Source of the DNA: Rhizopus arrhizus
Taxonomy: Eukaryota; Mucoromycota; Mucoromycetes; Mucorales; Rhizopodaceae
Reading direction: 5' to 3'
Assembly (NCBI GenBank): GCA_024220505.1
Contig: JAKZZE010000012.1
Coordinates: 434,001 to 498,000 of the forward strand
DNA: 64,000 bases
Shown one piece after another: positions 22,369-54,428 of this stretch. Under the pieces are notes generated by a model. The model did no database searches. It had not been told where the DNA came from and saw only the letters and a program-made list of their open reading frames with translations. Numbering within the stretch: the first letter of the stretch is position 1; every line of letters begins with the position of its first letter. The position numbers and the translations under genes are program-made.

Positions 22369-22773
22369 TACTGTATTTCCACTCTCAATTTACTGAATTT
22401 TTGAAAAGTCCGCCCGCTTTTTTGAATTATTTTGGACATTTGTGTGAGGTTAAATTGCCCATAATAATGAGACCAATTTGACCAGGTGTTTGAAGCCAGT
22501 TTGCCCAGCTTTTTGAGAATAAATTCACCACCATTTTCAATCAAGTTGCCCAATTTTTTGAGCCAATCATCATAAACAATATTCGTAAAAATGAACTTCT
22601 TTCATGGAGATGGAAAAGGTGGTATTGTGGATGAATCTGGCAAGGAAGCAAGTACTTCCCTCATTTCGATTAAGAAACTTGACAGTTTTAACTAGTATAT
22701 AAAAGCCAAAAACCTTATTTAAACCTTCCTTATTGAGAAAAAAAGCTCAGAAGGTCTCACTGGCAAAAATCAT
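22369..22773 (+). repeat. Left 405-bp terminal inverted repeat
   Basis: Reverse complement of 27013-27417. It contains a 61-codon frame on the reverse strand that is mirrored in the right repeat; this is a consequence of the duplication, not evidence for a gene. Confidence 0.9.
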
Positions 22774-23432
22774 GTTGCTTCTCTTTCATGTATAGTTTCT
22801 GTCGTATTTGAAGAAGGTTATACGAATACAAATACTCGGGTGTGAAGAGATTAGAGTTCTAGCTATTCAGCACATGCTCTACAAAACACGAATAGTTAAA
22901 TAGTATTCGTTGAGCGACACTTTAGTATAGTTTTGAGTAGCAATACTCACATACACAAAGGTGTTAGATTATTACTATATATTAATACACCTTTATTGAT
23001 ACAAAAATAAGACTGTATTCGCTACATAGCTACGATTCACCTTTTAATGAAAATGATATCAGCTATGCTACTGGATTTCGGTACTAGTGAAAAAGTACAG
23101 TAGAAATATATGTTTCTAGAATTATCAAGGAATACATACAATGTCATGCAAATTTTTAAAAACATTTTCTTTAATAATTGGGTAGCATAATCACTTGCGA
23201 GTATTTTCTTGTTGTAACAAGAAAGTGCCAAGTGTAATGCATCATAGTTTTAATATCTTTGAGAACCTCTCATGCTCTTTTTATTCAGTATGATAATCTT
23301 ATGCACTTTTTTAAACACACCAACACTTCATGCATATTTTTATCTACAATATAGCCAGTTTCATAATACATATCTTTTTATTTGGTATAGCTTTTCATAA
23401 ACATTAGAAATAGCTTAACAATATACAAATTT

Positions 23433-25596
23433 TTATTGTTCTTGAGCATAAAGGTTACTTGGTTCTGGTGGCGGTGGGGTTTTTGTCGTACGAGGAGGGT
23501 TCCACGAACCACGAATCCAAGTTTGCTTTGTAGAGATATCATCATCAATAGGTCGAGGAGCTGGACGTTTCGCAGTCTTTTGTTGACCACGGGATGATGC
23601 GAGATGATTTTCGTAGATATTATAGATTTCGATACATCGATCTCTAAAACACAATAAATTGAATGCAAGTTCCATATATTTTTCAAGTGAGTTCAATGAA
23701 GCATTGACCACTGAATGATAATGTTGTGTTCCAATATACAGACCATTGTCTTGAAGTTCAAGTTTAATAAAATAAACCTCCATACCACATATTTGCAGTG
23801 AATCAACATTATCAATGTGGCAACCGTCCAAAATAAATCTATCAACAATGACTTTGCTTTCAATTAAAACCTTGCATCGATCAGAATTAAACTTCACTTT
23901 TCCTGGACTCTCTTCAGCTGCCTCAGCAACTCCAACTTCATTCTCGACGTTGTATCTCTGCTTTATACTGTCATGTATAATACGAAGATCGACTTTGAGC
24001 ACTATATCGCCAATCGTGTCATGCAGAGTTAAATGTGTATCGCCCCATTTCAAGCGTAAACCACTGAAGTAAAATAATCGTTGTGTAATCGGGCCCCAAA
24101 ACTTCACAATGTAATCCCATTCTGAAGAGTGCACAGTATCCGAAAATAAACCTGGTTCATGTTTAATTGCCATCAGAATCTGCAACATAACATGTATACA
24201 AAAAGAGATATCCTTTTTGCTAATGTCAATTTCAGGATCATTTTGTTCCGTCAACTTTTTAGCCTGAACGTAAAGAGCTGTACAATTTTCATCAGAAGTC
24301 TTGGCTGGGTTATACGCTTTAAATATAGGCATTAATATTTTGCTAATATATGCGTATTCTTCAGAGACGTATTCCTTTGGTTTGTTTGTACGTTGGAGAT
24401 GCAACCATTGTCTATTGTTGAAAAGAGTTGACTGTGCGTCGAGATACTTATGGCTAAGGTCGAGAATGACACTCTCCGAGGTGATTATGATTGTAAACTC
24501 GATTTGTGTGGCCAGAAGAAATTTCCTTTTTCTGTTTGGTTCTTCAAGTTAAATCTATCTTTTTTGATGTAGTAACACTTGTCTTAAAGAGGTGAAGCTT
24601 TTGGTCTTTTTCCTTTTTGGTCTAGCTCAACTTGGTCATGGCCGAATGGAATGAGTAAGTCAATGTGAAAGAAATATAAGATTAGAAAAATGAAAGATGT
24701 CTGTTGGTGACCTGGGTGTCGGTAGCGAGTCGATGACGTGAGAAGGAAATCTGGGTTTGATTTCGGTGTTGTCTCGGCGGAGCTTCAGCAACATTGATCA
24801 TTGTTCAAGGCTTAAATCATCTTTCCTTTGATTTACCATTTTTATTCTAGTATTTCCCTGATCGTGTTTGACGCTATTTTAGTTACTTGATTTAACTTTT
24901 GATCTAAATTAGTTTACCTTCTTAATTTTCTCAATTGCATCATTTTCCTCCACTTGTTTAAAGAATTGATATCAGGATAACCCTTAGTTTAACTTCGAAA
25001 AGATATAAATATTGTTATAAAGTGAATCAATAAACAGGGAGTAATCGAATTCTTTCTTCCGGATAATATTGTCTTGGTTTAAAGACAAGGTTTTGTTATT
25101 ACTGTTTTCCTATTGGGTTCGTGTTTTCTTTTCTATTAAAGAACATTTCAGTCTATTATTCGCAAGTCCTTCAAAACAACTAGTTTAACACTACCGCGTA
25201 ATCTCAAGAATCGAATTCAAACCAAGTGATACGATTGCTTTTTCGTTGGAATCTAGGTGATGATACTCTTTACGTAAAGTGCAAGCTTTTGTTTTTATTA
25301 CAGAACCGACCGATTCTTCTTTTTCTGGTACAAAATGCTTGTCATGTTCAACTATTCTAACTGCACTTGATTCACCGAGTTGCTGTTTGATCTTCAATTT
25401 TTTTTTTCATTGAATTGAGCTCCTTTGTTCCTTCATGCTGAACATTAACGAAAAAATACTCTTTAGCTAAATTTCTGCACTGTCCTTTTTCATCATCAGA
25501 CGCGTTTGTTTTAGTATTCTCCTTATCGTCGCTCATTTTGTGTTGATCAAGTTGTAACAAAATATTTAATGCATAAAGTTTTCCAAATGGTGACAT
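23433..25596 (-). CDS. Protein of unknown function carried inside the 5-kb TIR element, with homopolymer frameshift
   Basis: A final exon (23433 to about 24540) reads ESVILDLSHKYLDAQSTLF, DENCTALYVQAKKLTE, EWDYIVKFWGPITQRLFYFS, GLRLKWGDTHLTLHDTIGDI, KVKFNSDRCKVLIESKVIVD and ends in SNLYAQEQ. A 5' exon (25191-25596) encodes FGKLYALNILLQLDQHK and LDSNEKAIVSLGLNSILEIT. The intron from about 25195 to 24540 can be joined in frame. In the 5' exon the frame breaks at a run of ten A (about 25400-25409); a one- or two-base change there would merge the halves. I recall similar multi-copy hypothetical proteins in Mucorales and Glomeromycotina but know no function. It has no transposase signature. Confidence 0.55.
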
Positions 25597-27012
25597 AAAT
25601 CGTATTTAAGTTGTTGCGTCACAATATGTAACCTACTGCTATAAAAATCTCCCCATAACCTTTTACTTCACTTTTACTTGTATTTTTTTTCTTATGCTTC
25701 ATTTTATTTTTAAATTTAAATAAAAACATACTATATTGGTTATTTTTGAAAAAGTCCCTTCACTCAAGACATCTGCTCTGACTAATTGAAACTACAAAAG
25801 TCTTATTTAACAAATTATTATTACCACGAACTTCATAAAGTTGCTTGTAATAAAATAATATAAAACATCTTTTACAAATTTTTCTTGATTACAAGTTCAT
25901 ATCTAAAAACCTTAAAAGAACAATAGAATTGAGCTACATATTATCTAAGTTATTCGTTTTTAATAAAGTTTACTACATCTTTCGTCTTTTTATAATAAAC
26001 GGTCCGGTCTCTAGATAAATTTCAAACTCTTACAAAGTACAACTAAAATAATTAAAAGTGTGATGTAACAAGTATCTCTAATCTTGATATGTTTGATTAA
26101 TCTTGCATGGCAGTTATTCGAGTATCATGGTGATCATAGACAAAGCGCCAATGAAAGTACCATGTAGTGTAAACAGTTTTAAGAATTTTCTTGATATGAT
26201 CCGGGAGAATAATATGTCGTAAAAACATTAACCAGAAAATGAGAGGTTAGGTATCAAAATAATGATCCCAAAGTGGTTTTTTTCGAGGGTACATAGACAT
26301 AAGCAATATCATCGGCAAGTGCTGATACCTAGTACACCACACTGAACACATGAAGAACAGAACTTCATATCCTCATACACCGGTCAATGCAATCAGATAA
26401 TGATATTGCTATGTCTATACCACACAACCCAGATGCATAAGATTCCTTTTTGCTGTCATTACTGCCCGCTTAGTCGACTTCTAAAGCACTCGTAAGCAGA
26501 CTCAGTTGTTCTGTTCAACCGGAAGTAGACCACACTAAAGCATGACAAAGGAATCAAATGCGATAACAGCAGAGACACAACCAAAGGTTTCTTATCACTA
26601 AAAAAAATATATAAATATGTTATACATAGATATTTAGCAATCTATTTAAACAAGTAGGTGCAAACTTTTTTACCAAGCATTTACAATAAATACCAAAACA
26701 AGCTACATAACATAATATTTCTATCTCTTGTGGGGAATTAAATATTCAGTAAACCCAAAAATAAGTAAGCTGCATTTTTTATTTTTGTATATTTGCTAAT
26801 GCATTCACAATTTTATAGGAATCATTATGGGAGTTGCGTACTATTGCATTCTTTTATAGTTTTGAAAATAAAATGAGTGAGAGAAGTGTTGGTTAAAAGA
26901 AAATGTAAATAAAAAAACAATAACTCAAAATCATGACGTCGCCGAGTGACGACATTTATTTATGGGGAATTGGACACCATATTTTTTTTTGGGACACTGA
27001 TAAAGTATTTTT

Positions 27013-27417
27013 ATGATTTTTGCCAGTGAGACCTTCTGAGCTTTTTTTCTCAATAAGGAAGGTTTAAATAAGGTTTTTGGCTTTTATATACTAGTTAAAA
27101 CTGTCAAGTTTCTTAATCGAAATGAGGGAAGTACTTGCTTCCTTGCCAGATTCATCCACAATACCACCTTTTCCATCTCCATGAAAGAAGTTCATTTTTA
27201 CGAATATTGTTTATGATGATTGGCTCAAAAAATTGGGCAACTTGATTGAAAATGGTGGTGAATTTATTCTCAAAAAGCTGGGCAAACTGGCTTCAAACAC
27301 CTGGTCAAATTGGTCTCATTATTATGGGCAATTTAACCTCACACAAATGTCCAAAATAATTCAAAAAAGCGGGCGGACTTTTCAAAAATTCAGTAAATTG
27401 AGAGTGGAAATACAGTA
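27013..27417 (-). repeat. Right 405-bp terminal inverted repeat
   Basis: Reverse complement of 22369-22773. It ends ...GGAAATACAGTA, after which the retroelement's target duplication continues into TTTTGTCCGCCC. Confidence 0.9.
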
Positions 27418-27429
27418 TTTTGTCCGCCC

Positions 27430-28418
27430 AGATCTCTTTCGCTTCCCCAACACTTTTGATATTTTTTTCCTTTTAAGGAAATAACCCATCATGTCCACCC
27501 ACCTTCAAACCATTCAATGATTACAAAATGAACTCGCAATCGCTAATGCCAAGATACACCAGTTGCAACAGGAAAACGCTTCTTTGCGGAAGCAAGTATC
27601 CTCTGAACCCACACCAACTGCAAACTCCAGTCCTCCTTCTGAATCTACTCCCCCCTCCTCCAAACGTCCACGCTCCCCCAGCAATGATGCTGCTCCTCCC
27701 ACAACCAAGGTATCTAAGCTTCCGAATCCCAAACCCAAACACAGCTTAGCTGCCATTGCTCGACAATTTTCCTCTCCTACTGCTCCTTCCAGCTTCATGT
27801 TTATTCACGTTCCCATTCACCGTCGCCTCCCCATCCATCAACTCCGTGCTAACCTTCGTGAGTTGCACATTAACACACGCCGCATTCTGGATATTCAATA
27901 TTCAGATCGAAATGTGGTCAGCTTCCTTATTCATACCGGTTTCGAACCTGAGCTCCGTTCTCAGCTGTACAAACACAAAATCACTATTCGTGACGACTTT
28001 GACCCTCTGAGCCCCTCCATCATTCGTGATCCTACACTTCTCAATGAATCCATTGAAAGAAAAACTAAACTTGCTCGTCATGTATTCCTCCAACGACTTG
28101 GTTCTGCTTTCCGCCGTCTCAAGGCTCCCCTTTACAACGCTGTTACTAACTACTTTCTCCAATCTGGACTCATAGACCTCAATTTCTTGGAGTCTTTTGA
28201 TCTCGCTCTCCCTCACAACTATCACAACCCTCTCCTAGACAAGATCTAGAGCTCTTTTCTACCTCTCCTCTTCCCTTTCCTTTTTCCCTTTTTGACTATC
28301 AAAAAGGTTTTTCGTTCATTTAATCCTCTTTTTGATCTAACCCGGGCAATGCAATCCTAAAAGTGATTATGTGCTCACATGGGGTTTTTAATTTTATAAA
28401 TAAAAATAATCTTTAATC
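27430..28418 (+). mobile_element. ORF1-only non-LTR-like retroelement, copy D (989 bp)
   Basis: The body is bounded by a perfect 15-bp direct repeat, GTATTTTGTCCGCCC, at 27415-27429 and 28419-28433. That repeat begins inside the last bases of the 5-kb element's right TIR. The element has a short 5' leader (AGATCTCTTTCGC...), one reading frame, a pyrimidine-rich 3' region and an end of the form AATAAAAATAATCTTTAATC with no long poly(A). There is no reverse transcriptase or endonuclease. The 3' end is nearly identical to copy A at 50590, and the architecture matches copies B and C. Confidence 0.8.
27491..28249 (+). pseudogene. ORF1-like protein of retroelement D with an early stop codon
   Basis: From ATG 27491 the frame reads MSTHLQTIQ, hits TGA at 27518-27520, and continues in the same frame as LQNELAIANAKIHQLQQENA, aligning with the coiled coil of copies B and C. 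So a single nonsense change breaks this copy. The rest is open: a Ser/Pro linker, then FIHVPIHRRLPIHQLRANLR and LHINTRRILDIQYSDRNVVS, an RRM-like alternation of strand and helix, and a helical C-terminus. The domain organisation (coiled coil, flexible linker, RRM-like domain) is that of a LINE ORF1 or Gag-like nucleic-acid-binding protein. The RRM call is inference from pattern. Confidence 0.65.
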
Positions 28419-28634
28419 GTATTTTGTCCGCCCCCTCCCGTTTTATACAAAGATACACCCAGACGCATAAAATTTGCGCATATTTTTTCTGAGCGAATAG
28501 AAAAGGCATTGACATAACTGAAATTGTCTACGCGTACATGTAATGAGATTGATCCCGATATTTCATAAAAATGCTTTGTTTCTTGTTTAAATGTTTATTT
28601 GCTCATAGCAAATGATTTTTTACAAATACAGTAT

Positions 28635-34448: not shown

Positions 34449-34525
34449 ATAACTCTATATGATATCTTTTTATCCTTCTGTTCTCTCTTCTTAATATATT
34501 GATTTTGTTCAAAATGATTTATTCC

Positions 34526-34791
34526 TTTGGAGTGAATTTTCATTCAACTTGTTGAAACTCATTTGCTCGTCGTTTTATTTGAAGACTTCATTCCTTCATT
34601 ATTATATGCTTTGTATATTTAATTATGGTATATAAGCTAAGCGTTGGCCCTTAATGCGTACCTTTCTTTTCCTTTCCCCTAACCTAACTTGGCAAGAATC
34701 CCAGATGGTATTCTGGTTGAGAGAATATAGCGAAAGATCAATACACATAGTACCCATTTTCAATAAATCCTCTTTAATAGACAGTGTATGA
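34526..34791 (+). repeat. Left arm of a 266-bp perfect inverted repeat
   Basis: Reverse complement of 35075-35340, with a 283-bp spacer. I found no mismatch where I compared the arms. The arm begins 77 bp after the stop codon of the E2 gene. Confidence 0.9.
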
Positions 34792-35074
34792 GTAGGTACA
34801 TTATCCATGATAGTATCGTATATTTTCATTTCATGTTTATTCAATACTACCACCACATTTGAACAGGCAGTCAAAATAATGATTGCTATGATGATTACTA
34901 CCACTGCTGCAGACGATGTCTTTTCTATCTTTTAATAGATATACTTCATATACACATATTTATTTATGTAAATAATTTATAGGTGTTCCTCATAAATACG
35001 TTCTGCATATTTATATCTTACGTTAGTATTATAATATCTACGTTAAGTCGGTATTCAACCGACTTTTTTACTTT

Positions 35075-35340
35075 TCATACACTGTCTATTAAAGAGGATT
35101 TATTGAAAATGGGTACTATGTGTATTGATCTTTCGCTATATTCTCTCAACCAGAATACCATCTGGGATTCTTGCCAAGTTAGGTTAGGGGAAAGGAAAAG
35201 AAAGGTACGCATTAAGGGCCAACGCTTAGCTTATATACCATAATTAAATATACAAAGCATATAATAATGAAGGAATGAAGTCTTCAAATAAAACGACGAG
35301 CAAATGAGTTTCAACAAGTTGAATGAAAATTCACTCCAAA
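35075..35340 (-). repeat. Right arm of a 266-bp perfect inverted repeat
   Basis: Reverse complement of 34526-34791. It ends 222 bp before the Kar9-like gene start. Both arms share a short open frame (SIKEDLLKMGTMCIDLSLYS), which is duplicated because the DNA is duplicated. It could be a captured gene fragment. Confidence 0.9.
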
Positions 35341-35562
35341 GTACTGTCTACACTGCGAAACTGTTTTAAACAGTTTTTTTCTTATTAGCGATATTCCCTC
35401 TGAGTTTAATTTTAAGCAAAAAAAAAAAAAAACCTGCAGAGTGCACAAATGACGGCGGCAGCTGATTTAACCCAAAAAGTATAAATTTATAAAAATCCAT
35501 ATTATTTTCTAGTAAAAAGGGCCAGGGTTTTTCTCTTTCTTTTTCTTTTCTGAACAACAATT

Positions 35563-49887: not shown

Positions 49888-50580
49888 TATGTTTGTTACT
49901 ATAGAAAAATATTCTTTTGTTCGTAAATAGGATTGTTATTATTACTCTTTGGCTAATATAAAATAAACGAAAAAAGTAAATTTAACTCTGATAGTTATGT
50001 CGGCTTTTTGATCGTGATACCTAAAATCCCCACTTTTCGGAAAAGTCACAAATATGGAAAGTCCTCAAAGTAGTTTATCTACTATTACTTTATATGTTAG
50101 TTACTATTTCTGGAAATCAGAATGTACTTTCCCTTTTTTATAAGTAATACAGTTTCTTTTGAAACTATTGGCGTACTTTATAAAATCACCACATTATTAT
50201 TTTCTGTTTATTTTTTTCTCCTTGTAACTCACAAAGGACTTTTTTTTCCTTTGTCTTTCCACTCTACAGGTTGGTCTGGTCCAGATGAACAACTTAATTA
50301 TTATGCACTCATCTTAATCTTCAAGAACAAAGAGAAATTAGTTCAACAATTAAAGAAAGTCAATTAGATTTAGTAAAATTTGAAGATATGATCTGCTCGT
50401 GTAATGTTTGATGGTATTATGAGAAGCAAACAACACATCTAAAGAGATTGAGCTCAAACCTGGTAATTGAGAGAAACAAAGAAATATGCTTGTGATTTTT
50501 AAAGTGTGCCAAAAGGGTCCCAAAGGCCCTTGCCACAATGACCCCTTTTGGGTTATCCCAACTTCTTTCCGCAAGATTCT
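49888..50580. other. No supported gene; short sequence echoed at 54095
   Basis: Contains a pyrimidine tract, a CAG acceptor-like site and CAGGTTGGTCTGGTCCAGAT (about 50268-50287). A very similar stretch occurs near 54102 in the same orientation. Possibly decayed remains of duplicated gene ends. Confidence 0.35.
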
Positions 50581-50589
50581 GTACTCTAC

Positions 50590-50979
50590 GATTAAAGATT
50601 ATTTTTATTTATAAAAATTAAAAACCCCATGTGAGCACATAATCACTTTTAGGATTGCATTGCCCGGGTTAGATCAAAAAGAGGATTAAATGAACGAAAA
50701 ACCTTTTTGATAGTCAAAAAGGGAAAAAGGAAAGGGAAGGGAAGAGGTAGAAAAGAACTCTAGATCTTGTCTAGGAGAGGGTTGTGATAGTTGTGGGGGA
50801 AGCGAGATCAAAAGACTCCAAGAAATTGAGGTCTATGAGTCCAGATTGGAGAAAGTAGTTAGAGACAGCGTTGTAAAGAGGAGCCTTGAGACGTCGGAAA
50901 GCGGAACCAAGTCGTTGGAGGAATACATGACGAGCAAGTTTAGTTTTTCTTTCAATGGATTCATTGAGAAGTGTAGGAT
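50590..50979 (-). mobile_element. ORF1-only retroelement, copy A (5'-truncated, ~390 bp)
   Basis: On the reverse strand it matches the 3' part of copy D: the end of the reading frame, then the pyrimidine-rich region and the identical terminus AATAATCTTTAATC. It starts abruptly within the coding part (GATCCTACACTTCTC). It is flanked on both sides by GTAGAGTACAGAA (reverse-strand sense), a 13-bp target duplication. 5' truncation is typical of target-primed reverse transcription. Confidence 0.75.
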
Positions 50980-50993
50980 CTTCTGTACTCTAC

Positions 50994-52053
50994 GATTAAA
51001 TAAGTTTTATTTATTTATTAAACCCAAGTGGGCACGCAGTATTTTTATACTAATTTTGCCCGGGTCAGTTCAAAGAGTGAAAGAAGTATCTAAAAACCCC
51101 TCTGGGATTGAGGGTAAAAAAGTTATAGTTTGAAGAAAGGGGACAGAGAAATGGATCTCAGAAAGAGAGGCTACTGAGAAAACAGTAAGTAGAGCTCATG
51201 TGTTTTTGACGGGAAAGAGCTCAGGAAAGTCGCCACGATCCAAATATCCTTTGTTAGCGAAGAAACTGGCTACAGCCCGCTTGATAGGGACTCTAAGGTG
51301 ATCGAGAGCACGAAGGATATGACACAGAAACAGGCCACGTGCGGCGCACGTCCTGTCCGCTTCGTCATAGTCGTCGTATTTAGGATCACGAAGGTTTGAG
51401 GGGTCTAAAGGATCATAATCATCTTGAATGGGGATCTCAAATTTCTTTAATAGCGAACGGAGCTCAGTTTCGTAATCATTATGAATTAGAAGGGCAACAA
51501 GGTCGCGGTCAGGGTAATGAATGTTGAGGATACGCCTGGTGTTAATATTCAGTTGTCGCAGACGAGAGCGTATTTGACCTACAGGAAGGCGGCGGCGTAT
51601 AGGCAGGTATAGGAACTTGTAGCCATGGTTGGTCGAGCGAACACTGAAGGTGCCAGCAGCAGCCATTTGACTAGGAAGGGGCGTGGAAGCTTTAAGCTTG
51701 GCAGCTTTCTGAGGAGGAGAAGAACCTAAATTGGAAGGCGGAGGACGTTTCTGAGGAGACTTGGGTTGCGATGAGGTTTCGGATACTAGTGAGGGAGACG
51801 TAAGTGGAGGAGATACCGGTGGAGAGGAGACCAAAGTGGAAGCGGGTTTCTTAGAAGCAACAGCGTTGGATGCATTAGCTAATCGCTCAAGGAGAGAAGC
51901 GTTTTGTTGCTTGAGTCGGGTGATTTCAGCCTTAGCTGCAGCGAGTTCTGCTTGTAGCTGCTTTACAGTTGGCATGGATCAAGTCTGTTGTTGTGGATAG
52001 CTTTCCAAATAAGGCAAGAATCTATGGAAAGTGATGGAAAGCGGAAAAAGAGC
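50994..52053 (-). mobile_element. ORF1-only retroelement, copy B (1,060 bp)
   Basis: Full-length copy bounded by the 14-bp duplication CTTCTGTACTCTAC at 50980-50993 and 52054-52067. It sits in the target duplication of copy A, so it arrived later. It has a 5' leader of about 80 bp, one intact frame, a 3' region and the terminus AATAAAACTTATTTAATC. It is a mirror image of copy C across a 115-bp MITE. Confidence 0.85.
51196..51975 (-). CDS. ORF1-like protein of retroelement B (intact, 259 aa)
   Basis: Intact frame of 259 residues. Residues 1-35 form a heptad-type coiled coil (VKQLQAELAAAKAEITRLKQ). Residues ~40-105 are a Ser/Pro/Lys-rich linker. Residues ~110-180 look like an RRM-type fold (YKFLYLPIRRRLPVGQIRSR, LRQLNINTRRILNIHYPDRD, LVALLIHNDYETELRSLLKK). 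The C-terminal ~70 residues are helical and charged (ARGLFLCHILRALDHLRVPI). This is the order of a LINE ORF1 protein (coiled coil, RRM, C-terminal domain). No zinc knuckle, endonuclease or reverse transcriptase is present. The nucleic-acid-binding role is inferred. Confidence 0.7.
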   Translation of the reverse strand: MPTVKQLQAELAAAKAEITRLKQQNASLLERLANASNAVASKKPASTLVSSPPVSPPLTSPSLVSETSSQPKSPQKRPPPSNLGSSPPQKAAKLKASTPLPSQMAAAGTFSVRSTNHGYKFLYLPIRRRLPVGQIRSRLRQLNINTRRILNIHYPDRDLVALLIHNDYETELRSLLKKFEIPIQDDYDPLDPSNLRDPKYDDYDEADRTCAARGLFLCHILRALDHLRVPIKRAVASFFANKGYLDRGDFPELFPVKNT

Positions 52054-52058
52054 CTTCT

Positions 52059-52173
52059 GTACTCTACACTATTTCCAGAAATTAAAGTCGTTTTTTGTGA
52101 AGTTTTATAATACAATTATATGTAATTGCGACAAGTCACGGCGACTTTAATTTCTGGAAATAGTGTAGAGTAC
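52059..52173. mobile_element. 115-bp MITE with 32-bp perfect TIRs
   Basis: 52059-52090 (GTACTCTACACTATTTCCAG...) is the reverse complement of 52142-52173, with a 51-bp loop that has no coding capacity. A TA occurs near each end (TA-CTCTACACTATTTCC), fitting a Tc1/mariner-derived MITE. Copies B and C lie at its two ends with their target duplications overlapping the last nine bases of each TIR. Confidence 0.8.
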
Positions 52174-52178
52174 GACCA

Positions 52179-53239
52179 GGAGCTCTTTTTCCGCTTTCCA
52201 TCACTTTCCATAGATTCTTGCCTTATTTGGAAAGCTATCCACAACAACAGACTTGATCCATGCCAACTGTAAAGCAGCTACAAGCAGAACTCGCTGCAGC
52301 TAAGGCTGAAATCACCCGACTCAAGCAACAAAACGCTTCCCTCCTTGAGCGATTAGCTCATGCATCCAACGCTGTTGCTTCTAAGAAACCCGCTTCCACT
52401 TTGGTATCCTCTCCACCGGTATCTCCTCCGCTTACGTCTCCCTCACTAGCATCCGAAACCTCATCGCAACCCAAGTCTCCTCAGAAACGTCCTCCGCCTT
52501 CCGATTTAGGTTCTTCTCCTCCTCAGAAAGCTACCAAGCTTAAAGCTTCCACGCCCCTTCCTAGTCAAATGGCTGCTGCTGGCACCTTCAGTGTTCGCTC
52601 GACCAACCATGGCTACAAGTTCCTATACCTGCCTATACGCCGCCGCCTTCCTATAGGTCAAATACGCTCTCGTCTGCGACAACTGAATATTAACACCAGG
52701 CGTATCCTCAACATTCATTACCCTGACCGCGACCTTGTTGCCCTTCTAATTCATAATGATTACGAAACTGAGCTCCGTTCGCTATTAAAGAAATTTGAGA
52801 TCCCCATTCAAGATGATTATGATCCTTTAGACCCCTCAAACCTTCGTGATCCTAAATACGACGACTATGACGAAGCGGACAGGACGTGCGCCGCACGTGG
52901 CCTGTTTCTGTGTCGTATCCTTCGTGCTCTCGATCACCTTAGTGGCCCTGTCAAGCGGGCTGTAGCCAGTTTCTTCGCTAACAAAGGATATATAGATCGT
53001 GGCGACTTTCCTGAGCTCTTTCCCGTCAAAAACACATGAGCTCTACTTACTGTTTTCTCAGTAGCCTCTCTTTCTGAGATCCATTTCTCTGTCCCCTTTC
53101 TTCAAACTATAACTTTTTTACCCTCAATCCCAGAGGGGTTTTTAGATACTTCTTTCACTCTTTGAACTGACCCGGGCAAAATTAGTATAAAAATACTGCG
53201 TGCCCACTTGGGTTTAATAAATAAATAAAACTTGTTTAT
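52179..53239 (+). mobile_element. ORF1-only retroelement, copy C (1,061 bp)
   Basis: Full-length copy bounded by the 14-bp duplication GTAGAGTACGACCA at 52165-52178 and 53240-53253. This duplication differs from that of copy B after the shared GTAGAGTAC, proving an independent insertion. The terminus is AATAAAACTTGTTTATTC. The body is about 96% identical to B in protein but inverted. Confidence 0.85.
52260..53039 (+). CDS. ORF1-like protein of retroelement C (intact, 259 aa)
   Basis: Same organisation and length as the protein of copy B, starting MPTVKQLQAELAAAKAEIT and ending FPELFPVKNT. I count about a dozen substitutions (for example LPIGQ for LPVGQ; HLSGPVK for HLRVPIK), mostly conservative, so both copies look recently active and under coding constraint. 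The start lies 81 bp into the element. Confidence 0.7.
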   Translation: MPTVKQLQAELAAAKAEITRLKQQNASLLERLAHASNAVASKKPASTLVSSPPVSPPLTSPSLASETSSQPKSPQKRPPPSDLGSSPPQKATKLKASTPLPSQMAAAGTFSVRSTNHGYKFLYLPIRRRLPIGQIRSRLRQLNINTRRILNIHYPDRDLVALLIHNDYETELRSLLKKFEIPIQDDYDPLDPSNLRDPKYDDYDEADRTCAARGLFLCRILRALDHLSGPVKRAVASFFANKGYIDRGDFPELFPVKNT

Positions 53240-53253
53240 TCGTAGAGTACGAC

Positions 53254-54428
53254 CACAGTTGGAATAAGGGCTTGTAATCAACCGTCATAGCCTTGCTCAA
53301 CTAAAAAGTTTAAAAGATACTCAAGGCGGCTATATATGCAGAATTGACGACGCTTACGAAAAGACTCTCTACCAAGATGATGCTTCATTTTGTCTAGTTG
53401 TCCTCAGAGACTGAAAGAGTAAGCATTTCCCCATGATCAATCTCTCTTTCGCTCCCAAATATTACCAGAAGAACATGTTGCTGTCCCGTTTAATGCCTCC
53501 TATCTAGCACACACTTGGTCACCTTTGATATCAGTTGTCTAAAACTGCTCTGTGACGAACGATACCCTCCCCCATTAGATGAACAAAGTACCCAAGCGTT
53601 CAGGGCTATTAAGAGACAATTCTTGCAGCTAAACCTGGACAAACGAATTCAAGACAAGAATTCAAAGCTCCTATCCAGTTGTCAGAAATTCTCTCTCAAC
53701 CCAACTTTATGGCTACCTATGATCCGCCAGGAAAGGAGCAGATGCATACGTTGACACCTTGGACGTTGGTCACCCCAAGCTTTACCCGTGATATCCTATT
53801 TATGTCCTTTTCAGATGACAGGCTAATCACTATCTGGACATGCATCATTTATCGTTTCTTTTAAATATGCTCCCAACATGCTCTTTCACCTCCTCAAATA
53901 TAGTCATCTCCTGGATATATTGATGGTCGATCATTTGCTCTATACTACATGAACTAGATCAATTACATCACTATGCTCCTATATTTATTCTGGTTTCCTC
54001 TAGTCAAATACTAATTGAATAATTCAGTCAACTTCTCTGATATTAGGTGACTCTTCAGTCCACTGTTTTCCTTTTGTTTTCTTTTCTTTTATTCTTGTTC
54101 CAACAGGTTGATCTGGTACAGGCGGACAATTTAGATATTATGTAGTCTCCTGGACCTTAATAAATAAAAACTATGTTTAATCATTAGTCCTTCAATAATT
54201 TCAAGAAAAATAACTGAATAATTTATATTCAAACTGAAACTTATTCATTTAGAAAGGTACATGAATATGAAATAATGAATTTTTATTTTATCAGCAAAAG
54301 GGATATAAACTTTACCATTGCCTTTCAATACCAAAAAATATCACAATTTCAATTGGCGCAAATTCTTGTAAAGCAGGCCTTTTTATAAAAATGAACCTTT
54401 TTTATTCACAAATTAACAACTTTTGTAA
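53254..54428. other. No intact gene; possible decayed coding sequence
   Basis: 53440-53860 has unusually high coding-like composition in several interrupted frames (for example SSCQKFSLNPTLWLPMIRQE) without a family I recognise, so it may be a decayed mobile element. Near 54102 a CAGGTTGATCTGGTACAG stretch echoes that at 50268. The last 200 bp are the promoter of the E2 gene. Confidence 0.35.

Follow-up and report, generated by a model that had tools for sequence, protein, structure and literature searches.

Insertions of a LINE and two ORF1-only relatives at Tc1/mariner-type transposon tips in Rhizopus arrhizus

Introduction

Tx1L of Xenopus laevis, a long interspersed nuclear element (LINE) of the apurinic/apyrimidinic endonuclease (APE) type, inserts sequence-specifically at an internal site of the DNA transposon Tx1D. 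R1, TRAS, SART and the fungal telomeric elements are site-specific elements without long terminal repeats (non-LTR) that target ribosomal DNA (rDNA) or telomere repeats, and TRAS-like elements stack. Half-LINEs of the HAL1 type are LINE derivatives that retain only the first open reading frame (ORF1). Here we describe a LINE and two short ORF1-only families, B and D, from a 64,000-nucleotide stretch of the Rhizopus arrhizus genome (C4:434001-498000, hereafter the window) and from the 50.26-Mb assembly of 41 contigs that was searched with it. We consider, with a probability of about 0.8, that copies of all three have their 5' ends at outer tips of terminal inverted repeats (TIRs) of the Tc1/mariner type, the LINE endonuclease likely nicking the boundary between the transposon and its TA duplication.

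The APE-type clades with specific targets are Tx1 and R1, and the targets of site-specific LINEs are mainly rDNA, telomeres, small nuclear RNA or transfer RNA genes and microsatellites, with transposons also listed (PMC4640811). Other transposable elements are likewise given among the targets of specific non-LTR elements in PMC8869645. The LINEs of Rhizopus include L1 and RTE, and the accessible part of that source contains no statement on their targets (PMC5982828). In the same phylum, Mucoromycota, Grem-LINE1 surrounds the centromeric area of Mucor lusitanicus (PMC7763443).

Results

Three insertions around one MITE

A miniature inverted-repeat transposable element (MITE) in the window carries a B-type retroelement at each of its ends. 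Both elements, copy B on the minus strand and copy C on the plus strand, face away from it, and direct reading bears out the first-pass annotation in this respect. The features of the locus are as follows.

50577 to 50589, minus strand: 3' target duplication of copy A, GTAGAGTACAGAA
50590 to 50980, minus strand: copy A, 5'-truncated D-type retroelement matching D positions 596-986
50980 to 50993, minus strand: 3' target duplication of copy B, GTAGAGTACAGAAG, last base 50980
50994 to 52053, minus strand: copy B, B-type retroelement, ORF 51196-51978 (stop to stop)
52054 to 52067, minus strand: 5' target duplication of copy B, GTAGAGTACAGAAG
52067 to 52165, no strand: 99-bp MITE, CACTATTTCC...GGAAATAGTG, with TIRs CACTATTTCCAGAAATTAAAGTCG
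52165 to 52178, plus strand: 5' target duplication of copy C, GTAGAGTACGACCA
52179 to 53241, plus strand: copy C, B-type non-autonomous retroelement, ORF 52260-53036 (259 aa)
53242 to 53255, plus strand: 3' target duplication of copy C, GTAGAGTACGACCA

The MITE measures 99 bp, not 115 bp as first annotated, and has TA on either side (52065-52066 and 52166-52167). With TA included the unit is 101 bp, and a genome search for it gave 189 candidates, of which the best 40 were scored. The duplications of B and C are 14 bp each, and the first base of each is the terminal base of the MITE. The stretch GTAGAGTAC, previously read as the last nine bases of the TIR, shares only its first G with the MITE; the following TA is the target duplication of the MITE, and GAGTAC is flank. 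It is mostly flank, and it is not part of the retroelement itself, a possibility that had been raised. The target common to the two insertions is indeed the TIR end, as had been proposed, but the shared part lies upstream of the presumed nick and is not GTAGAGTAC. The duplications of B and C begin alike because a 14-bp palindrome, GTACTCTAGAGTAC (GTACTC-TA-GAGTAC, 52054-52178), has the MITE at its centre. GAGTAC is host flank that is palindromic around the MITE by happenstance, and the bases past GTA differ at other tips.

B and C are separate insertions, as first suggested, but they are not the only two, copy A being an older third. B lies within the 5' duplication of this truncated D-type copy and was inserted after it, because the duplication of B takes in the first base of A (50980). 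The locus is mirrored at C37:451.2-456.5 kb, where a single MITE has a LINE at each end.

An APE-type LINE and two ORF1-only families

The LINE is 4,712 bp long and comprises ORF1 and an ORF2 of 1,115 codons (stop to stop). It is present in eight full-length copies at 97-100% identity, together with many 5'-truncated ones. ORF2 contains a reverse transcriptase domain, RVT_1 (PF00078, E 2.6e-28), and an APE-like endonuclease, Exo_endo_phos_2 (PF14529, E 7.1e-9, above the cut-off; PF03372 stayed below it), and its best match among solved structures is human LINE-1 ORF2p (E 3.1e-21). Reverse transcriptase, APE-like endonuclease, constant 3' end, frequent 5' truncation and target duplications together identify a non-LTR element of the APE type. 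Among the best 120 of 207 ORF2 relatives, the named rows down to P0086 are all from Mucoromycota, including Rhizopus, Parasitella, Mucor, Circinella and Phycomyces, and weaker rows include animals.

Families B (about 1.06 kb, 259-aa ORF, 24 near-full copies) and D (about 0.99 kb, 254-aa ORF) encode proteins that are 38% and 33% identical, respectively, to the C-terminal part of the LINE ORF1 product with which they align (approximately residues 156-395 of the translated frame). The 259-aa element lacks a reverse transcriptase; it resembles the 4.7-kb LINE at its 5' start and shares the 3' end and target of that LINE. All three families typically end in ...TTTAATC, followed by GTA. Both B and D have the hallmarks of LINE satellites, namely no reverse transcriptase and a 3' end and target in common with an autonomous LINE. 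The 4.7-kb LINE is probably their autonomous partner, and B and D are likely ORF1-only relatives that depend on its enzymes in trans.

The pooled ratio of nonsynonymous to synonymous substitution rates is 0.37 for B (23 distinct sequences, three with an in-frame stop), 0.22 for LINE ORF2 (four sequences), 0.33 for LINE ORF1 (three) and 0.53 for D (six); one single B pair gives 1.01. From the pooled values, the B protein is therefore probably maintained by purifying selection. Its closest named matches are from Rhizopus arrhizus: P0124 (85%, full length) and P0127 (96% over 70%).

Two irregular loci involve these families. At C23:1014-1016 kb (L014), a B copy stands head to head with a LINE with a 443-aa ORF1, and no duplication is seen. 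At C4:1690-1708 kb, three D copies (L067, L091 and L093) have exchanged flanks, as if after inverted duplication and recombination between copies.

Target sites across the genome

The census covers the flanks of 80 copies (27 D, 30 LINE and 23 B), drawn from DNA searches in which about 40 of the best candidates were scored (of 83, 153 and 293). The 46 D rows provided 27 copies (29 rows), seven rows falling within the window or loci already counted, two having no 3' end and eight having less than 80% identity. From 49 LINE rows, 30 copies (36 rows) were used, ten rows being within loci already covered and three left out. For B, 23 near-full copies were counted among 42 rows; 18 partial or diverged ones were left out, and L019 was dropped at a contig end, where its 5' side meets a MITE. 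LINE and D members of arrays in L061-L064, L006, L009, L013, L015, L017 and L020 stand outside the 80. A duplication was accepted when anchored at AATC/GTA with at most two mismatches in 12.

By this measure, 58 of the 80 copies have a target duplication (D 18/27, LINE 20/30, B 20/23), and 43 of these 58 start at a TIR-tip motif. Most copies with a duplication are thus not in unrelated sequence, an outcome that would have spoken against the first-pass annotation. The main tip accounts for 38 of the 58: in 37, at most three mismatches separate the sequence before GTA from the 14-mer TTTCTGRAAATAGT, and in the LINE copy L137 the tip is two bases shorter. By family, the 14-mer followed by GTA is found at 17/20 LINE and 7/18 D duplications (at most three mismatches) and at 13/20 B duplications (at most one). 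For the LINE alone, 18/20 duplications are at the main tip, that is, most insertions are in one sequence and one orientation, as expected of a site-specific element. A second tip type holds five duplications, all of D (L077, L087, L101, L103 and L107), three of them apparently one event. The consensus upstream of the presumed nick is approximately TTTCTGRAAATAGT before GTA, with GGAANNACW/GTA in some D copies.

In six further cases (L011, L016, L018, L020, L065 and L117), the duplication comes immediately after another retroelement's 3' end; for the first four, a tip is found farther upstream, in L061, L063, L062 and L020, respectively. Two others (L089 and L093) end in ACT/GTA, with a candidate TIR only. 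At junctions outside arrays, A occupies position -3 in 50/52 and T position -1 in 46/52, and the bases past GTA vary. Among the 54 rows with an exact duplication of 9 or more, 52 fall in the range of 12-16.

The transposons that provide the tips

The exact main tip has 197 matches in the genome, and the reversed control has none. It is common to MITEs and to a 1,682-bp element (L185) in which 60/60 terminal bases are identical, with TA on both sides. This element contains a stop-free transposase frame (DDE_3, E 5.4e-26), and thereby has the defining features of Tc1/mariner. The flanks of L007, L022 and L123 match its end over more than 100 bp, as do those of L015, which has no anchored duplication. 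The second tip type, with the pattern ATTGRSRSTGGAANNACWGTA, has 99 genome matches and none for the reversed pattern; among the matches listed are 15 outward-facing pairs, six of them spanning 1,613-1,646 bp.

For the second tip type and for a 5.0-kb element in the window, both TA and TIRs are seen. As first annotated, copy D stands at a tip of this 5.0-kb element, the right one:

22371 to 27415, no strand: 5.0-kb TIR DNA transposon, TIRs of about 400 bp, TA duplication, tip GGAAATACAG followed by TA
27415 to 27429 and 28419 to 28433, plus strand: duplication of copy D, GTATTTTGTCCGCCC, its first base being the terminal base of the 5.0-kb element
27430 to 28418, plus strand: copy D, D-type retroelement at the right tip of the 5.0-kb transposon

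The longest listed frame of this transposon, 371 aa on the minus strand, gave no match to Pfam, and no transposase was found for this transposon or for the second tip type. Elsewhere in the window, positions 34525-35341 hold a perfect 267-bp inverted repeat (34525-34791 and 35075-35341).

Tip occupancy was assessed by comparing the first 100 tips listed with 102 known element places. At ten of them an element begins no more than 45 bp away and has its 5' end facing the tip; a reversed element within 60 bp is seen at none of the 100. Together with the 43 of 58 duplications at tip motifs, this agrees with the initial proposal of an orientation-specific target at the ends of Tc1/mariner-type inverted repeats.

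Stacked arrays

Up to four retroelements are stacked on one tip. In L061, the order is MITE tip, truncated LINE, full LINE, B and D, and GTACTGGGATTCC is present at all five junctions; comparable stacks occur in L006, L009, L013, L017, L020, L062, L063 and L064. Where the duplication of the left member is longer than the shared core, its extra 1-2 bases match what comes after the core at the 5' end of the right neighbour. The order of insertion can be diagnosed in this way at six junctions (in the window, L061, L006, L009, L020 and L062), where the tip-proximal member is the newer one because its duplication runs into the 5' end of the right neighbour.

These arrays also bear on whether the DNA transposons came second, the MITEs having entered the TA with which existing retroelement duplications open. 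In favour of this, the duplications do begin with (G)TA, and TA is the insertion site of Tc1/mariner elements. That order, however, needs a MITE at the 5' duplication and never at the 3' one, and it has to account for a single MITE between two divergent insertions, both in the window and at C37:451.2-456.5 kb. Nor does it fit arrays with one tip and up to five copies of the duplication, or the 5'-truncated copies that are flush with tips as well. We regard this order of events as extremely improbable.

Evidence against tip targeting

Several observations weigh against targeting of TIR tips as described. No anchored duplication was found in 22 of the 80 copies; in five of these (L005, L015, L073, L095 and L147) a tip is present only on the 5' side, L069 and L145 carry a 13-bp duplication not anchored on AATC/GTA, and the rest look rearranged or broken. 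Some rows are segmental duplicates (L087=L101=L103; L065 repeats the L061 array; L163=L165), so there are fewer insertion events than rows, and the census favours young copies because only about 40 of the best candidates per search were scored. A motif match alone does not prove a TIR: L071 is classed as a tip solely through a match with three mismatches, and an inverted tip partner 98-100 bp away (at most three mismatches), which is the MITE, accompanies only 16 of the 58 duplications, in a search that ranged over about 100 bp for D and the LINE and up to 1.5 kb for B. At 90 of the 100 listed tips, no known element begins next to the tip.

The order signal in the stacks amounts to just 1-2 bases per junction, so that single cases may be due to chance, and it is weakest in L061 and L062. 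In L063, the two outer junctions share a base that is missing from the middle one, a pattern that simple nesting does not readily account for. The far D duplication of L062 is mismatched; this end, L015 and L005, where the duplications are also mismatched, look recombined.

Finally, D accepts a broader range of tips than the LINE and B, and seven of the 58 duplications (L008, L010, L023, L099, L111, L131 and L149) lie off the tip motifs, though they likewise begin with GTA. These seven, and the several motifs taken by D, would be expected if the elements had weak selectivity for an A-rich motif with a terminal GTA and the surviving insertions were concentrated in transposons as harmless sites. 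Selection among survivors, however, would not account for a junction confined to a single base and a single orientation, and reversed elements are absent from all 100 listed tips. Moreover, the 14-nt tip (at most three mismatches) lies upstream of 2 of the 1,655 GTA in the repeat-masked window, versus 37 of the 58 insertions. Weak selectivity followed by survival is thus an improbable explanation, and targeting of the tips themselves is preferred.

Other LINE families

Three further families, with ORF1 products of 454, 443 and 412 aa, were read at their 5' junctions, and on the 3' side at one tandem junction (L180). All five copies examined of the 454-aa family have AAATAAATGTC, AAATAATTGTC or AAATATTTGGC in the 5' flank, at the start or a few bases from it. 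Three of them (L182, L183 and L187) lie within a repeat, one stretch of which, TATGGAAATTGGCGTTTT, is found at 10 places in the genome. Inverted pairs there suggest that this repeat is a TIR, and two further places of the 10 lie about half a kilobase from ORF1 matches of another LINE. The 454-aa family is possibly a second transposon-targeting LINE. One copy of the 443-aa family (L190) starts inside a MITE-like repeat.

The 412-aa family has a different junction motif. Of the four copies examined, two (L179 and L191) share their flank and are located about 110 bp inside a repeat that begins with AGTGAGAACGG and also flanks L184.

The five 454-aa copies, L182, L183, L184, L186 and L187, start at or just after an AAAWAAWTGKC-like sequence, in most cases within repeats resembling the TIRs of other DNA transposons. 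The 412-aa LINEs L179 and L180 (C37:1585981-1591439) are arranged in tandem about 4.7 kb apart, with the junction AAAATTGATTGTGT in common. The tandem looks like stacking on one target again.

Tentatively, and at somewhat less than even odds, these families may form a LINE guild that lives on DNA transposons, with one lineage on TIR tips and the 454-aa and 443-aa relatives at approximately AAAWAAWTGKC inside inverted repeats. If so, DNA transposons would spread landing pads for a whole retroelement community.

Discussion

Constant junctions, outward orientation, 5' truncations, duplications of mostly 12-16 bp, common 3' tails and stacks are read directly from the sequence. At these junctions, the 3' end of the element, typically ...TTTAATC, is followed by GTA and flank, and on the 5' side the TIR tip is followed by the same GTA and flank. 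This arrangement suggests that the APE endonuclease of the LINE recognises the TIR end, approximately TTTCTGRAAATAGT before GTA. The first nick would fall at most one base from the transposon/TA boundary, on the complement of the outward-reading TIR strand; its position is fixed only to within one base because the G may belong either to the 3' end of the element or to the target. Reverse transcription would then be primed from the freed end (target-primed reverse transcription), and B and D would be moved in trans by the LINE proteins. With the TIR left intact and GTA duplicated, each insertion would restore a TIR followed by GTA. As the sequence held in common is upstream of the nick and GTA opens the duplication, the same tip could be used again, and on this rebuilt-target model the element adjoining the tip would be the youngest.

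The precision of the junction, constant to within one base of the transposon/TA boundary, may also be explained by a Tc1/mariner transposase that guides the LINE, either by binding or through a nick at the transposon end that serves as primer. A stop-free transposase frame is present in the genome, tips from different TA-flanked families are used, and transposases of the Tc1/mariner superfamily cut first the very strand on which we place the LINE nick. On that strand, however, their cut lies 2-3 bases within the transposon, at odds with a primer that would end at TA or at TAC. The LINE carries its own APE endonuclease domain, and the seven off-tip duplications also begin with GTA. Guidance by a transposase therefore appears unlikely, and we favour recognition of the tip by the LINE endonuclease.

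A target made of the ends of another transposon is multicopy, dispersed, likely harmless and self-multiplying. The geometry that restores GTA outside the TIR means that the target is not consumed and that the order of insertion can be read; target choice, endonuclease recognition and satellite dependence are therefore testable with short oligonucleotides.

In the accessible open-licence literature, to which the search was confined (most subscription papers and Repbase were beyond its scope), we found no LINE with a TIR-tip target and no description of the self-renewing target geometry or of ORF1-only satellites of this kind. LINEs that target transposons are known already, and it is the use of TIR tips of several families that looks new.

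Compared with the described systems, the present LINE belongs to the same phylum as Grem-LINE1 and differs in location, Grem-LINE1 being found around the centromeric area. With R1, TRAS, SART and the fungal telomeric elements it shares constant junctions, a specific endonuclease target and, as in TRAS-like elements, stacking; their targets are rDNA or telomere repeats, whereas here they are TIR tips. B and D resemble HAL1 in keeping an ORF1-type protein only and in sharing the target and 3' tail of a LINE; unlike HAL1, they retain just the C-terminal portion of ORF1, and there are signs that purifying selection acts on the B ORF. In target, the LINE resembles Tx1L, also an APE-type LINE with sequence-specific insertion into a DNA transposon. 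In contrast to Tx1L, the target described here comprises the outer TIR tip together with host flank, is provided by several TA-flanked families, and is rebuilt, with stacking of successive insertions.

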